From: Bacteroidales bacterium
GTDB lineage: Bacteria > Bacteroidota > Bacteroidia > Bacteroidales > UBA932
DNA: 37,237 bases
Assembly (NCBI GenBank): GCA_024402135.1
Contig: JAKSJN010000019.1
Location: 1-37,237 of the forward strand
Direction of reading: 5' to 3'
How positions within the stretch are numbered: the first letter of the stretch is position 1; every line of letters begins with the position of its first letter. The notes under the pieces were generated by a model that worked only from the letters and a program-made list of their open reading frames with translations, was not told the origin of the DNA and did not search any database. The translations under genes were made by a program, and so were the position numbers. Below are positions 3,765-36,115 of the stretch, piece by piece.

Positions 3765-4250
3765 ATGAACTCCGGAGTCATTTCTTCCAGATACGCCAAG
3801 ACGCTCCTGCAGCTGGTCGTCGAGACCGGTCGCGGGGAACAGGTGTACTCCCAGGTCAACAGAATTCTTCGTGATCCATCCATTCTCGAGAATGGCTCGA
3901 TCCAGCTGGAGCCTGATCTGGAGAGGTTCATTGCCTTTGTCGTTTCAAAGGGCAGGACAGAGTACATGAAGTACATCCTTCATTCATTCTGCTCCCAGTA
4001 CAATGCCTATATGGGCAGGAAGCTGGTGCGGCTTACCACCGTGGTCCCTATACCCGGCCTGGAGGAAAAGCTGCGTCCGGTTCTTGCCAAGGCCCTGGAC
4101 TCCGAGATTCTCTTCGAGACTGCCATCGATGCAGGACTTATTGGAGGCTTCCGTGTGGAAGTCGAGGATCTGTTGCTTGACGCCAGTGTGCGCAGGCAGA
4201 TAGATGACATCAAACGTCAATTCGTTGACAATAACCGTAGAATAGTGTAA
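3765..4250 (+). CDS. atpH: F1Fo ATP synthase subunit delta
   Basis: The delta subunit links the top of F1 to the peripheral stalk. The 161-residue protein begins with the characteristic N-terminal segment [22 protein letters not shown]. It ends with the C-terminal motif of the OSCP/delta family, seen in [20 protein letters not shown] followed by a basic tail. This family is variable, and the operon position between atpF and atpA gives strong support. It starts one nucleotide after the atpF stop. Confidence 0.94.
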
Positions 4251-31738: not shown

Positions 31739-33079
31739 ATGCACATGACCGACAGAACCCCGATATTGCTGCTGACCGGCTATCTTGGCAGCGGCAAGAC
31801 AACATTGCTCAACAGAATCCTCTCGAACCGCAAAGGAATCAGGTTTGCGGTCATCGTGAACGATATCGGAGAAGTAAACATCGACGCAGACCTCATCCAG
31901 AAGGGAGGCATCGTGGATCAGAAGGATGACAGTCTTGTCGCCCTCCAGAACGGCTGTATCTGCTGTACATTGAAGATGGACCTCATCAAGCAGCTCGAGG
32001 ACCTGGTAGGCATGAAGGCTTTCGACTACATCGTAATCGAGGCCAGCGGTATCTGCGAGCCTACTCCTATTGCGCAGACTATCTGCAGCATCCCTCAGCT
32101 CGGCGAAGACTGGAGCCATGAGGGAATTGCATATCTCGACTGTGTCGCAAGCGTTGTCGATGCACTCCGACTCCAGAGCGAATTCTGCTGCGGAGATGAC
32201 CTGAAGAAGGATAATCTCGATGAGGAAGATATCGAAAACCTCATCATCCAGCAGATCGAGTTCTGCGACATCATCCTGCTCAACAAGGCCTCGGAGGTCA
32301 GCCCGGAGGAACTTGGCCGTATCAAGGCCGTGATCCGTGCGATCCAGCCTATGGCCGAGATCATCGAGTGCGACTATTGTGACGTCGACCTGGACAAGCT
32401 CGTCAATACCCACCGCTTCAACTTCGAAAAGGCCGTTACATCAGCTACATGGGTACGCGAGGTCGAGGCTCCTGCCACCGAGGAAATGGAGATGGAAGCT
32501 CATGGAATCCATTGCCACCATGGCGAAGAAGAGGAGGAGCATCATCACCATCATCATGATGATGACGAGCATGAATGCCATTGCCATGAGGAAGGTCATG
32601 AGTGCCACTGTCACGACCATGATGACGACGATGATCATGACCACGAGGAACATGAACATCACGGACATCATCACCACCATCACCATCATCATCACGATGA
32701 GGGTGAGGCTGAGGAATACGGAATCGGTACATTCGTGTACTACCGCCGCCGTCCGTTCGACATAAACAAGTTCGACTGGTTCATCAGCAAGCGCTGGCCG
32801 AAGAATGTGATCCGTGCAAAAGGTATCTGTTGGTTTGACGACCAGCCGGACATGTCGTACATTTTTGAACAGGCAGGTGTCCAGAAGCAGCTGACCGAGA
32901 TCGGCCAGTGGTTCGCTTCGGCTCCGGAAGATGAACTGCTCGAGATTGTAAAGCAGAATCCTGACGCCCTTCGCGACTGGGATCCAGAGTATGGTGACAG
33001 GATGCAGAAGCTTGTATTCATCGGCAGAAACCTTGATAAGGAACAGCTCGCTGCCGATCTTGACCTTTGTCTCGTTTAG
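31739..33079 (+). CDS. COG0523 (CobW-like) GTPase with a histidine-rich metal-binding tract
   Basis: This 446-residue protein is a G3E-family GTPase of the CobW/COG0523 group, usually a metallochaperone, often for zinc. The P-loop GYLGSGKTT is at 14-22, the group's CxCC motif at C73-I-C75-C76, and the guanine-specificity motif NKAS at 182-185. Residues 254-319 are an extreme metal-binding tract with about 32 His, many Asp and Glu, several His-Cys-His steps, and a run of ten His (310-319). The C-terminal CobW domain follows (YYRRRPFDINKFDWF, about 334-348). Metal identity and client protein cannot be told from sequence. It lies 8 nt after the aspartokinase-like gene and 2 nt before thiL. I see no Zur-type operator. 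Confidence 0.9.
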   Translation: MHMTDRTPILLLTGYLGSGKTTLLNRILSNRKGIRFAVIVNDIGEVNIDADLIQKGGIVDQKDDSLVALQNGCICCTLKMDLIKQLEDLVGMKAFDYIVIEASGICEPTPIAQTICSIPQLGEDWSHEGIAYLDCVASVVDALRLQSEFCCGDDLKKDNLDEEDIENLIIQQIEFCDIILLNKASEVSPEELGRIKAVIRAIQPMAEIIECDYCDVDLDKLVNTHRFNFEKAVTSATWVREVEAPATEEMEMEAHGIHCHHGEEEEEHHHHHHDDDEHECHCHEEGHECHCHDHDDDDDHDHEEHEHHGHHHHHHHHHHDEGEAEEYGIGTFVYYRRRPFDINKFDWFISKRWPKNVIRAKGICWFDDQPDMSYIFEQAGVQKQLTEIGQWFASAPEDELLEIVKQNPDALRDWDPEYGDRMQKLVFIGRNLDKEQLAADLDLCLV

Positions 33080-33081
33080 TA

Positions 33082-34110
33082 ATGGCAGATTCAGTAGCAT
33101 CACTTGGAGGTGAGTTCGGATTCATTAACCTGATACGTTCGCGTATCACGGATCCGGCCGGTATCCGCGGAATCGGTGACGACTGTGCGGTTCTTCCGAT
33201 GAACTCCACGACTGATCTGGTGGTCACCACAGACCTCCTCATAGAGGATGTCCATTTCATCCTGAGCGACATTACTGCTGCTCAGCTCGCGTACAAGAGC
33301 GCTGCGGTGAACCTCAGTGACATAGCTGCAATGGGAGCCAGGCCGATAGGATGCTTCCTGAGCATTGCTTTGCCAAAGAACGTTACTGCCAAGTGGGCAG
33401 ACCAGTTCATCGAGTCCTTCATAGCGATATGCGACCGTTTCGGAGCGACCCTCCTCGGAGGAGATACGACATCATCCAAAGGCCCTATCGCAATCAATGT
33501 CGCCGTCCTCGGAAAGGTTCCTTGTGGACGCTCAAAGCTTCGCAGCAGCGCACGTCCCGGAGACCTGATCTGTTGTACAGGAACCTTGGGAGACTCCGGT
33601 GCCGGACTGGATGTCGTTCTGTCCAGGGTCGCATCAGCGGAGAATGCAAAGCTTGACGCCGATGCTGAATGGCTTGTACGCAGACATTATGAGCCGACCC
33701 CACGTATCCAGGAAGGTCTGCTTCTGGGCGAGCTGGAGGGTGTGCATGCCATGATGGATATCTCCGACGGCATAGCCTCTGACTTGAACCATATACTGAA
33801 GGCATCATCTACAGGCAGCGTCCAGCTGGGTGCCGACGTCCATGTCGAGCAGCTGCCGCTTTCTTCGAAACTGCGCCGCTGGAGTGCTGCAAACGGCAAG
33901 AATGCCATTGAACTCGCATTGACGGCAGGTGAGGATTTCGAGCTTCTTATGACCATCTCGCCCAATGATCTGGATCGCGCACGCGGCTGTCTGGCTTCCC
34001 TCTGTCCATTGACGGTGATAGGCGAGATAACGGCCAGTCACAAGGGGATCCGCTACATGGATGGCGACCAGGAATTGACTCAGCAGTTTGCCGGTTACAC
34101 CCACTTCTGA
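33082..34110 (+). CDS. thiL: Thiamine-monophosphate kinase
   Basis: ThiL phosphorylates thiamine monophosphate to the active cofactor thiamine diphosphate. The 342-residue protein shows the PurM-like ATP-binding features GIGDDCAVL, TDLLIEDVHF, KSAAVNLSDIAAMGA and GGDTTSSKGP, and later MMDISDGIASDL and GEDFELL. ATG at 33082 is chosen, 2 nt after the preceding stop codon; an earlier in-frame TTG would overlap that gene. Other thiamine genes are not in the window. It ends the four-gene cluster, and the umuD promoter region begins just after it. Confidence 0.95.
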   Translation: MADSVASLGGEFGFINLIRSRITDPAGIRGIGDDCAVLPMNSTTDLVVTTDLLIEDVHFILSDITAAQLAYKSAAVNLSDIAAMGARPIGCFLSIALPKNVTAKWADQFIESFIAICDRFGATLLGGDTTSSKGPIAINVAVLGKVPCGRSKLRSSARPGDLICCTGTLGDSGAGLDVVLSRVASAENAKLDADAEWLVRRHYEPTPRIQEGLLLGELEGVHAMMDISDGIASDLNHILKASSTGSVQLGADVHVEQLPLSSKLRRWSAANGKNAIELALTAGEDFELLMTISPNDLDRARGCLASLCPLTVIGEITASHKGIRYMDGDQELTQQFAGYTHF

Positions 34111-34132
34111 TACTTTCTGAAATAGAATAATG

Positions 34133-34175
34133 ACATCATTGTTTGAATTTGTATTGCAAAATCAAACAATGATGT
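34133..34175. promoter_or_regulatory. 43-bp dyad, probable operator of the umuDC operon
   Basis: A perfect 14-bp inverted repeat, ACATCATTGTTTGA (34133-34146) and TCAAACAATGATGT (34162-34175), flanks 15 nt whose core again pairs TTTG with CAAA. The dyad covers the probable -33 region and most of the promoter spacer upstream of the UmuD-like gene. It ends 2 nt before the -7 element, so a bound repressor would block RNA polymerase. There is no T-run after it, so it is unlikely to be a terminator. Confidence 0.75.
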
Positions 34176-34184
34176 TTACTTTTG
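34153..34184 (+). promoter_or_regulatory. Promoter of the umuDC-type operon
   Basis: TACTTTTG (34177-34184) matches the TAnnTTTG -7 consensus. ATTG at 34153-34156 can serve as the -33 element with a 20-nt spacer, the usual distance. The -33 lies in the centre of the large inverted repeat. The preferred umuD ATG at 34190 is only 6 nt after the element, so the message would be leaderless or nearly so. Confidence 0.6.
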
Positions 34185-34189
34185 TGCCC

Positions 34190-34810
34190 ATGGCAAAGGA
34201 AATGGCAGAGAAATCGAACCGCGGAGGACGCAGGGAAGGTGCAGGACGCAAGCGCAGCGCCGGCCGCAGCGTGACTTTCAGGGTCGCACTGGACGTGGAG
34301 AATCATCTTGAAGATAATCTTCCGGCATCGGATTTTCTCAATTCCCTGATAAGGGAACACAAGCATCTTTCTTCCATGAAGTTGCCGTTCGATGTCTATT
34401 CCTTTACCGGTTCGGATCCTGTGATGATTCCATACAGTCTTCATGGACTGGTGGCGGGTTTCCCTATACCTCTTGACAATGATGAAAAGTCCCAGAGTCT
34501 GGATCTGATACGTCTTCTTGGGCTCAATAAGGAGTCAGTATTCATCGTACGTGTCAAAGGTGACTCGATGGTCGGTTCCGGTGTCGATGACGGCGACATG
34601 GTCATCGTGGACCGCAGCATCACGGACTTTGACGGTCATACGCTTTGCGTATGCTCGCTCAACGGTGAATTCACACTGAAATACCTTCGCCGTCATGAAG
34701 GCCGCTATGTGCTGGTTCCGGCCAATCCGGATTATCCGGAGATCCCTGTCGAGGACAGCGACAGGCTTGACATCTGGGGAGTCGTCACCCTGATAATGAA
34801 GAAGCCGTAG
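34190..34810 (+). CDS. umuD: UmuD-like self-cleaving protein with a putative DNA-binding N-terminus
   Basis: This is a LexA/UmuD-type S24 serine peptidase of 206 residues, longer than E. coli UmuD (139). Residues 85-206 are the peptidase domain: cleavage site A89-G90 (GLVAGFPIP), nucleophile S126 (GDSMVGSG) and base K164 (FTLKYL). Residues 1-88 are unlike UmuD. A basic GGRREGAGRKRSAGR stretch is followed by SVTFRV, then two predicted helices (ALDVENHLEDN and SDFLNSLIREHKHL), the outline of a ribbon-helix-helix DNA-binding domain. Together with the inverted repeat over its own promoter this suggests an autorepressor inactivated by self-cleavage after DNA damage. ATG 34190 is chosen because the upstream in-frame ATG at 34130 precedes the promoter; 34202 is also possible. 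umuC follows after 33 nt. Confidence 0.88.
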   Translation: MAKEMAEKSNRGGRREGAGRKRSAGRSVTFRVALDVENHLEDNLPASDFLNSLIREHKHLSSMKLPFDVYSFTGSDPVMIPYSLHGLVAGFPIPLDNDEKSQSLDLIRLLGLNKESVFIVRVKGDSMVGSGVDDGDMVIVDRSITDFDGHTLCVCSLNGEFTLKYLRRHEGRYVLVPANPDYPEIPVEDSDRLDIWGVVTLIMKKP

Positions 34811-34843: not shown

Positions 34844-36115
34844 ATGTACGCTCTTGTCGACTGCAACAGTTTCTTCTGTTCAGTTGAAATATCTTTCCGT
34901 CCCTGGCTGCGCGGCAAACCTGTGTGTGTGCTGAGCAACAATGATGGATGCATCGTCGCCCTCACGAAGGAGGCGAAGGCCGTCGGCTTGCACAGGGGCG
35001 ATCCTGTCCACCAGGTTCGTGACATAATAGAGCGCAACGATGTCACCTTGTTCTCCGGAAACATGATGCTGTATTCGGCAATGTCAAAGAGGGTGATGAG
35101 CATACTGGCCAGGGCTGCGACCCGTATAGATGTCTATTCGATAGACGAGGCCTTCCTGGACCTGTCTGATTCCGGCAGATATCGCGACATTGCGGCAGAT
35201 ATGCGGGCTCTGGCAGCTCAGGTGCTTCAATGGACCGGAATCCCGGTCAGCATAGGTGTGGCGCCGACACGCACATTGGCAAAGATGGGCAGCAGGTTCG
35301 CCAAGGAGTACCCCGGATATCATTCGGTCTGTATGATAGACAGTGAGTCCAGACGGCTCAAGGCCCTTGAGCTCTTCGACCTGGCGGATGTATGGGGCAT
35401 CGGCCGCAGAACTGTCCCCAAGCTTGCGGCTCTGGGAGTGAAGACTCCTCTTGACCTGGCCCGCAAGCCGGAGGAATGGGTAAAACGTCATTTCAACGTC
35501 AATATGTACAGAACCTGGCTTGAACTCAACGGTCAGTCAGCGATAGACACGATGGAAAAGGCCGAGAAGCAGACCATTTCCACAAGCCGGTCATTCAGCC
35601 ATCTGACGGACGATCTTGAGGTCATCGAGACTGGTACGGCCAATTTCGCCGCGTCCTGCGCCAACAAGCTGCGCGCCCAGAACTCCCTTGCCGGGCGTAT
35701 CGGCGTGTGCATCATGACCAGCACGTTCCGCGAAGATCTGCCGCAGCACATCGAAATGCTTGACATGCCTCTCTGCATTCCAACAGCTGACACAACGGAA
35801 CTCGTGCATGCCGCTCTCCAGCTGGTCCGCAGGCTCTATCGTCCCGGCTACAAATACAAGAAGACCTGTGTCATGTTGAGCGACATCATTCCCGCCGCCG
35901 GCTTCCAGCAGGACCTGTTCGATCCCGTCAGCAACCGCCCTGAACGCGCTGCACTCATGCATGTCCTGGACGATGTCAATACCAGATATGGACTGCATTC
36001 GCTACAGTTCGCAGTCCAGACAGGCCACGAGGCTGAATGGCGCTCCAAGCACCTTCACAACAGCCCAGACTATCTTACCAACATAAACGAAATCCCGGTC
36101 GCCAACGCTCGTTGA
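34844..36115 (+). CDS. umuC: Y-family DNA polymerase V catalytic subunit, UmuC-like
   Basis: This is a translesion DNA polymerase of 423 residues. The opening MYALVDCNSFFCSVEISFRP carries the first catalytic aspartate (D6) and the steric residues of the family. The second acidic cluster is in YSIDEAFLDL (D103, E104). A helix-hairpin-helix region is seen in VWGIGRRTVPKLAALGV (about 185-201), and the C-terminal little-finger region ends with a short tail (LFDPVSNRPERAALM). Length matches UmuC rather than DinB. It is downstream of the UmuD-like gene by 33 nt with no terminator or promoter between, so the two are a mutagenesis operon under the dyad-controlled promoter. Confidence 0.95.
   Translation: MYALVDCNSFFCSVEISFRPWLRGKPVCVLSNNDGCIVALTKEAKAVGLHRGDPVHQVRDIIERNDVTLFSGNMMLYSAMSKRVMSILARAATRIDVYSIDEAFLDLSDSGRYRDIAADMRALAAQVLQWTGIPVSIGVAPTRTLAKMGSRFAKEYPGYHSVCMIDSESRRLKALELFDLADVWGIGRRTVPKLAALGVKTPLDLARKPEEWVKRHFNVNMYRTWLELNGQSAIDTMEKAEKQTISTSRSFSHLTDDLEVIETGTANFAASCANKLRAQNSLAGRIGVCIMTSTFREDLPQHIEMLDMPLCIPTADTTELVHAALQLVRRLYRPGYKYKKTCVMLSDIIPAAGFQQDLFDPVSNRPERAALMHVLDDVNTRYGLHSLQFAVQTGHEAEWRSKHLHNSPDYLTNINEIPVANAR

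Follow-up and report, generated by a model that had tools for sequence, protein, structure and literature searches.

The window analysed here is one entire contig of 37,237 bases from a Bacteroidales genome (2.6 Mb in 34 contigs, 98.1% complete), and it carries an umuDC operon whose features are collected in Table 1. The first gene encodes RHH-UmuD (RHH, ribbon-helix-helix), a candidate autorepressor in which an S24 autopeptidase domain (Pfam Peptidase_S24 at residues 89–199, E 2.6e-24; residues numbered from 34190) follows an N-terminal head predicted to bind DNA. The top NCBIfam model for this protein is the autoproteolytic subunit of DNA polymerase V (Pol V), NF007621, at 105.8 bits, just short of the cut-off of 110. 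The product of the second gene scored 345 bits with the UmuC subfamily model, below the cut-off of 431. A first, sequence-only reading had pointed out the A-G cleavage site at 89/90 together with S126 and K164; all are present in the open reading frame and are retained among 70 aligned family members (A89, G90 and K164 in 69/70 each, S126 in 70/70).

Table 1. Features of the umuDC operon and its promoter region in the window
Feature	Coordinates	Strand	Remarks
Palindrome around the operator	34133..34175	.	19-nucleotide (nt) arms 34133-34151 / 34157-34175 with 5 nt between, 95% complementary
Operator TTTGA-attt-GTATTGC-aaaa-TCAAA, window copy of the family box	34142..34166	+	16/17 positions
Bacteroidota −7 promoter element TACTTTTG (TAnnTTTG)	34177..34184	+	operator core centre 23 nt upstream, on the −33 element
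RHH-UmuD, S24 autopeptidase with N-terminal DNA-binding head (predicted)	34190..34810	+	likely start 34202
Basic arm RGGRREGAGRK, residues 11-21	34220..34252	+	R15, G17 and G19 invariant; same kind of motif in UmuDAb of Acinetobacter
Ribbon strand RSVTFRV, residues 26-32	34265..34285	+	outward residues 27, 29 and 31 inferred from hydrophobic alternation
Helix A (residues 34-42) and helix B (46-62) of the RHH-like head	34289..34375	+	AlphaFold
S24 peptidase domain	34454..34786	+	A89-G90 site 34454-34459, S126 34565-34567, K164 34679-34681
umuC, Y-family polymerase, operon gene 2	34844..36115	+	Pfam: IMS 1.7e-35, IMS_C 1.4e-17, DUF4113 1.6e-13

Using eight family members as queries, a scan of named genomes returned 131 relatives, and 80 were kept as loci. 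A regular expression for the basic arm matches 70 of the 80, and one more locus (L102), whose arm is weaker, shows the strand and both helices, giving 71 head-bearing loci. One locus (L113) was not judged among the 80, another (L096) starts at a contig edge, and the DNA upstream of two others (L061 and L088) is too short. The N-terminal extension with its basic stretch, first noticed in the window protein alone, is therefore a family trait: it is conserved across about 70 proteins, with R15, G17 and G19 in 70/70, and this conservation rules out an ordinary UmuD with a misread start. The reading frame at 34190–34810 stands, but the start first assigned to it is probably not the true one. The −7 element stops just 5 nt 5′ of 34190, while the ATG at 34202 leaves 17 nt; among relatives, 53 of 61 measured promoters have a distance of 17–34 nt. 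Because this spacing matches that of the relatives and the resulting N-terminus resembles theirs, we favour the ATG at 34202.

A strand followed by two helices is the ribbon-helix-helix pattern. AlphaFold models the head as an extended stretch leading into the two helices, with a predicted local distance difference test (pLDDT) score of 76–88 in blocks of residues 31–60 and 56–61 in the block 61–70. Hydrophobic residues alternate along the strand at positions 28, 30 and 32, and helix B opens at a conserved N-K/R-T/S. DSSP assigned no strand, the model being of a monomer and so lacking the partner strand. The strand-helix-helix pattern originally proposed is thus borne out by the predicted helices and the alternation, while the search with RHH profiles returned no significant match. 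Since every profile and fold test for RHH on the head scored below significance, we regard the RHH fold as likely rather than proven. None of the Pfam helix-turn-helix (HTH) models matched the window protein.

The promoter dyad noted in the same first reading proved real: its 13-base-arm pattern matches once in the window and never in 100 shuffles, and the nine-base-arm pattern occurs at a single place in the 2.6 Mb source genome. It is a copy of a family operator, TTTGA-N4/5-GTAWTAC-N4/5-TCAAA. With a threshold of 14 matching positions out of 17, this box is present upstream of 62 of the 70 head-bearing umuD genes, the window's among them; the consensus was itself derived from these promoters. 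Among controls it was found in none of 24 short umuD genes and none of five head-less relatives from the same clade, two sets that are independent of the consensus, and in two of 350 mononucleotide shuffles. Promoters of Bacteroidota have the consensus TAnnTTTG (−7) and a −33 element. TAnnTTTG follows 61 of the 62 boxes, and the core centre lies 21–24 nt upstream of it in 59 of the 62, a spacing that places the box over the −33 element.

A strict form of the box was sought in 48 genomes representing 49 of the 71 head-bearing loci. It occurred at 34 sites in 32 of the 48, a fraction that is not a prevalence, as the genomes were chosen knowing their boxes and are biased to the GTAWTAC core. Thirty-two sites lie at RHH-umuD promoters; of the remaining two, one is directly before a distant umuC and one is inside a gene whose product reads as a regulator of the MerR type. 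The reversed strict pattern gave seven matches in the same genomes, so isolated strict sites elsewhere may be due to chance. A loose box has two places in the source genome. One is the promoter of the operon itself; the other, whose spacers are 6 bases long, lies in that of a tRNA-Leu (taa) gene (L197 1501-1527, G000:C2:34293-34319) and is either a chance match or a real target. There is no box in the genome's own recA promoter, where the best score is 11/17. A wide SOS regulon was considered and not seen, strict boxes being nearly confined to RHH-umuD promoters and the recA promoter having none. Separately, the promoter of the Phocaeicola vulgatus locus L047 seems to have two GTTATAC/GTATAAC cores about 32 bases apart (about 3885-3923), possibly a double operator.

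We also compared the occurrence of head and box across the family. The joint counts, for which L096 and four viral rows were set aside along with the rows missing from the tree below, are 62 loci with both, 29 with neither, seven with the head alone and none with the box alone. In a tree of the S24 domain (omitting L061, L088, L113 and L114), a branch supported at 100/99 separates 67 head-bearing and six head-less rows from the short UmuDs. The head-less rows are scattered inside the head-bearing clade. Two related head-bearing members (L104 and L107) are placed among the short UmuDs yet carry the box, and the window row has a long branch and an unsure placement. Five members of the clade (L067, L084, L087, L098 and L106) have neither head nor box, so that head and operator seem to have been lost together. 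When kinship was controlled for on the rows of the joint counts, only three independent head/box pairs fell on supported branches; on average 2.8 agreed and none opposed (p 0.25).

Within the head, a single strand residue tracks the operator core. This is residue 29, which lies in the middle of the three outward positions. Among 45 proteins that have Ser, Thr or Asn there, 43 go with a core that has A third and T fifth (GTAnTAC); among 18 that have Ala, 17 go with a core not of this type. The window pairs T29 with GTATTGC. Agreement is thus 60 of 63 (naive Fisher p 3e-12, kinship ignored). This count omits seven rows without clear arms and outer core, in which L058 would be an exception and L083 and L102 would agree, and it includes L078, whose core can be read as CTTTTAC (odd) or GTATAAC, either being counted as agreeing. 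As relatives are not independent, all 206 columns including the S24 domain were compared. Column 29 came out top, with a mutual information of 0.64 (next 0.59) and, by a wide margin, in single-residue balanced accuracy, at 0.94 (next 0.77). Kinship-controlled pairs were too few here (one supported). The rule also holds at a distance: boxes before distant umuC genes obey it in 8/8 cases, Ser going with GTAWTAC in five and Ala with GTTATAC or GTCATAC in three. Two Ala proteins (L055 and L058, the latter outside the 63) break the rule at their own weaker boxes and fit it at their umuC boxes (GTCATAC).

These distant boxes came from loci where the two genes are separated. A UmuC match lies downstream in 59 of 71 head-bearing loci, and in the other 12 none was found in the DNA examined, which for one of them amounts to 127 bases. 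Setting aside L102, the twelfth such locus, there are 11 genomes in which no umuC follows the repressor gene. In eight of these the box stands directly before a distant umuC, with scores of 14–17. The other three have, respectively, umuC behind a short umuD with no box, no umuC match, and a weak umuC match only. In genome G229 there is no second box before umuC (10/17), as expected, because umuC lies there behind a helicase gene and shares the operon of the repressor gene. A gene for a 727-amino-acid helicase directly follows RHH-umuD in three loci (L053 4612-6795, L094 4387-6570 and L076 4634-6817). It is of the UvrD/PcrA type by Pfam and NCBIfam in L053 and by Pfam in L076, and L094 reads alike. 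In L076 umuC is the third gene, and in the genomes of L053 and L094 umuC is elsewhere with its own box. The source genome also holds what looks like a umuC relic, a 48-amino-acid frame with 41 residues 85% identical to the end of the window UmuC (G000:C5:62312-62434, L192).

A search of the source genome for S24 domains found three places, the window gene and two proteins that read like signal peptidases. The question of a separate LexA is thereby answered for this search, which found no LexA-like repressor; nor was another UmuD found in the genome. RecA is present. The proposal of a DNA-binding autorepressor gains support from the comparisons, namely the conserved operator, its absence at the head-less relatives examined, the boxes at unlinked umuC genes and the covariation at residue 29. 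We put the probability that the protein cleaves itself and acts as autorepressor of the umuDC operon that encodes it at roughly 0.84. Comparison of sequences supports the architecture, the operator and where it sits on the promoter, the association of the head with the box and, in relatives, regulation in trans of umuC genes that lie elsewhere. As to mechanism, we infer that a dimer would hold the dyad through its N-terminal heads, with the strand reading the GTATTGC core at its centre; the arm, basic GGRREGAGRK, probably runs along the A/T-rich flanks. The head on its box would cover the −33 element and so block transcription. After DNA damage, RecA filaments would prompt self-cleavage by the S24 domain at the A89-G90 bond. 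The head would leave and the promoter open, and the C-terminal piece would then serve as a UmuD′-like partner of UmuC.

The last of these steps meets the strongest alternative, which shares the repressor half of our reading, so that the odds of the two overlap. The protein may be a repressor only, having given up the UmuD′ role in Pol V after the fusion, with cleavage merely ending repression. Several points weigh against our own account here: the 12 loci with no downstream UmuC match, the three with a helicase gene next instead, and locus L246, where the gene taken for that of UmuDAb, a UmuD repressor of Acinetobacter, has no umuC behind it. Such a gene can evidently live apart from umuC. We nevertheless consider this alternative improbable, given the UmuC match in the large majority of loci, a C-terminal part closest to Pol V UmuD models and a genome in which no second UmuD was found. 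Less probable still is that the box serves another, unlinked repressor and that the head binds DNA or a partner in some other way, for example bringing UmuD to damaged DNA. Binding of the family box by the head is a prediction from sequence comparison and the RHH profile scores are sub-significant. In addition, the order contains at least one small stand-alone protein that shares this arm and strand-helix pattern, and a further four frames match the head profile; the box might therefore be read by a third protein. Both points count against the autorepressor; the joint counts, with no locus having the box alone, and the tracking of the core by residue 29, at distant umuC genes too, argue for it. 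That the dyad is simply a strong core promoter element, as its place at −33 in nearly all cases might suggest against an operator, is very unlikely for a 25-nt dyad that is missing from 24/24 short umuD promoters and rare elsewhere (two of the 34 strict sites beyond RHH-umuD promoters, two loose places in the source genome).

By record titles nearly all family members are Bacteroidales, among them Phocaeicola vulgatus, P. massiliensis, Prevotella, Segatella and Hoylesella; the remaining titles name a single Oscillospiraceae member and a single uncultured bacterium. In P. vulgatus ATCC 8482 the umuD homologue lies at NC_009614.1 4265569-4266246. In 200 genomes of the genus and order (the source genome included), an S24 match was found in 93, and the head was covered in nine, two of which (G022 and G137) have it partially or in pieces. 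In 393 genomes sampled evenly across the order the head was found in just 10, so the family is patchy; it was joined to S24 in five. The other five heads lie in open frames of 60–93 amino acids, and some of their neighbours read like phage genes. Small S24-free frames matching the head profile (L239 674-871, turned, and L240–L243) are a possible source of the head; in L239 the arm and pattern can be seen in the letters, and L240–L243 were recognised by the profile. Across 394 genomes of the phylum, the matches listed for taxa other than Bacteroidales do not start before model position 39, except for three listed matches in frames of 299–367 amino acids. A phage or plasmid origin of the window gene was considered and rejected: none of the 12 phage and 928 plasmid records that match covers 80% of the protein, and among the matches listed (12/12 phage, 15/928 plasmid) the alignments begin at residue 45 or later. 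One contig of G137 (L234 1429-2289) has the head and the start of S24 fused in frame to mid-UmuC, as after a deletion, with a box upstream at 16/17. In the window, the genes upstream, a further point against a phage or plasmid origin, encode NQR subunits, a nucleotidyl transferase, an amino-acid kinase, a CobW protein and an AIRS protein. The CobW-type GTPase (31739-33079) has a long histidine-rich stretch ahead of its CobW_C domain.

The protein can be set beside several known systems. UmuD of the E. coli type (Pol V) shares the S24 domain, the cleavage site and the umuC gene next in the operon; it is not known to have an N-terminal head. PutA works by a redox switch. In trifunctional PutA an RHH head likewise turns an enzyme into a repressor of its own genes, although PutA belongs to proline metabolism and has no peptidase, according to the parts of the source available (PMC5293562). 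LexA is also a self-cleaving S24 repressor of translesion polymerase genes; its winged helix head has no Pfam counterpart in the window protein, which scores 52.2 bits with the LexA model TIGR00498 (cut-off 110.95). The non-canonical LexA of Bacteroidetes, in the available part of its description, is an S24 autopeptidase with a CI-like HTH head, the motifs GGA-N5-TCC or CTAA-N5-TTAG and a broad regulon (PMC8565304). It resembles our protein as an S24 autopeptidase repressor of SOS-type genes from the same phylum and differs in its HTH head and its motifs; neither motif could be read in 34110-34190. As far as the accessible portion of that 2021 survey goes, Bacteroidetes SOS regulators are absent from Bacteroidales, and a DNA-binding domain was not detected in the Bacteroidetes UmuD homologs identified there (PMC8565304). 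Francisella FddR is a further S24-family autoregulator that replaces part of the LexA response; as partly available, its description makes it a co-opted phage repressor with a GTG-N11-CAC motif and not a UmuD (PMC13148647). If our proposal is correct, RHH-UmuD is a candidate regulator for part of the SOS gap in Bacteroidales, including gut bacteria such as P. vulgatus, and the box and the residue-29 rule make this directly testable.

The closest parallel is UmuDAb, which the sources, as partly available, describe as a protein that cleaves itself and represses its own gene along with other umuDC and umuC genes in Acinetobacter, a genus without LexA; its operator has TTGA/TCAA arms and a GTWAC core, and its head is called unusual (PMC4807011, PMC11332147). 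As UmuDAb is a published self-cleaving UmuD repressor, the idea that repressor and UmuD roles are merged in one molecule, put forward in the sequence-only reading without mention of UmuDAb, had been described before. What does appear to be new is the family in Bacteroidales, together with its operator and probable fold. Among the open papers listed, which leave out most subscription papers and all preprints, none was seen to describe an RHH-type UmuD. Both proteins are UmuD-type S24 peptidases with an A-G site, a Ser/Lys pair and an N-terminal extension bearing an arm of the GGARxxAGRK type. The protein of L246, on a contig deposited under a phage name and taken here for UmuDAb on the strength of its 203 residues and A83-G84 site, has an HGGARENAGRK arm followed by a strand; operator sites of the UmuDAb form also precede umuD genes of viral contigs. 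Scored against UmuDAb, the Bacteroidales head model gives 10.2 bits (at most 2.8 in 200 shuffles), nearly all of it from the arm; beyond the arm the heads show no significant match, and the Bacteroidales head has two predicted helices after the strand. The operators differ in the core, TTGA-N4-GTWAC-N4-TCAA in UmuDAb against TTGA-N4-GTATTGC-N4-TCAA in the window, seven bases long throughout the family. Whereas UmuDAb has a divergent ddrR, nothing like it was seen at the window promoter, though DdrR itself was not searched for; the gene upstream (33067-34110, with AIRS domains) runs in the same direction. The whole proposal is that Bacteroidales, an order reportedly without LexA or the substitute known from its phylum, use an RHH UmuD as their damage-response repressor. 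This protein would read a new box whose core is chosen by one strand residue, would govern Pol V both in cis and in trans along with, in some species, a PcrA/UvrD-type helicase, and would belong by arm and operator to one class with UmuDAb, whose head has eluded classification. The proposal has slightly better than even odds of holding in every part. It would make a second case, after Acinetobacter, of a polymerase subunit acting as repressor, and the likeness offers a lead on how the poorly understood head of UmuDAb binds DNA. Family-wide comparison strongly supports the narrower view in which RHH-UmuD is to Bacteroidales what UmuDAb is to Acinetobacter, using an operator of its own and a head that is likely to differ.
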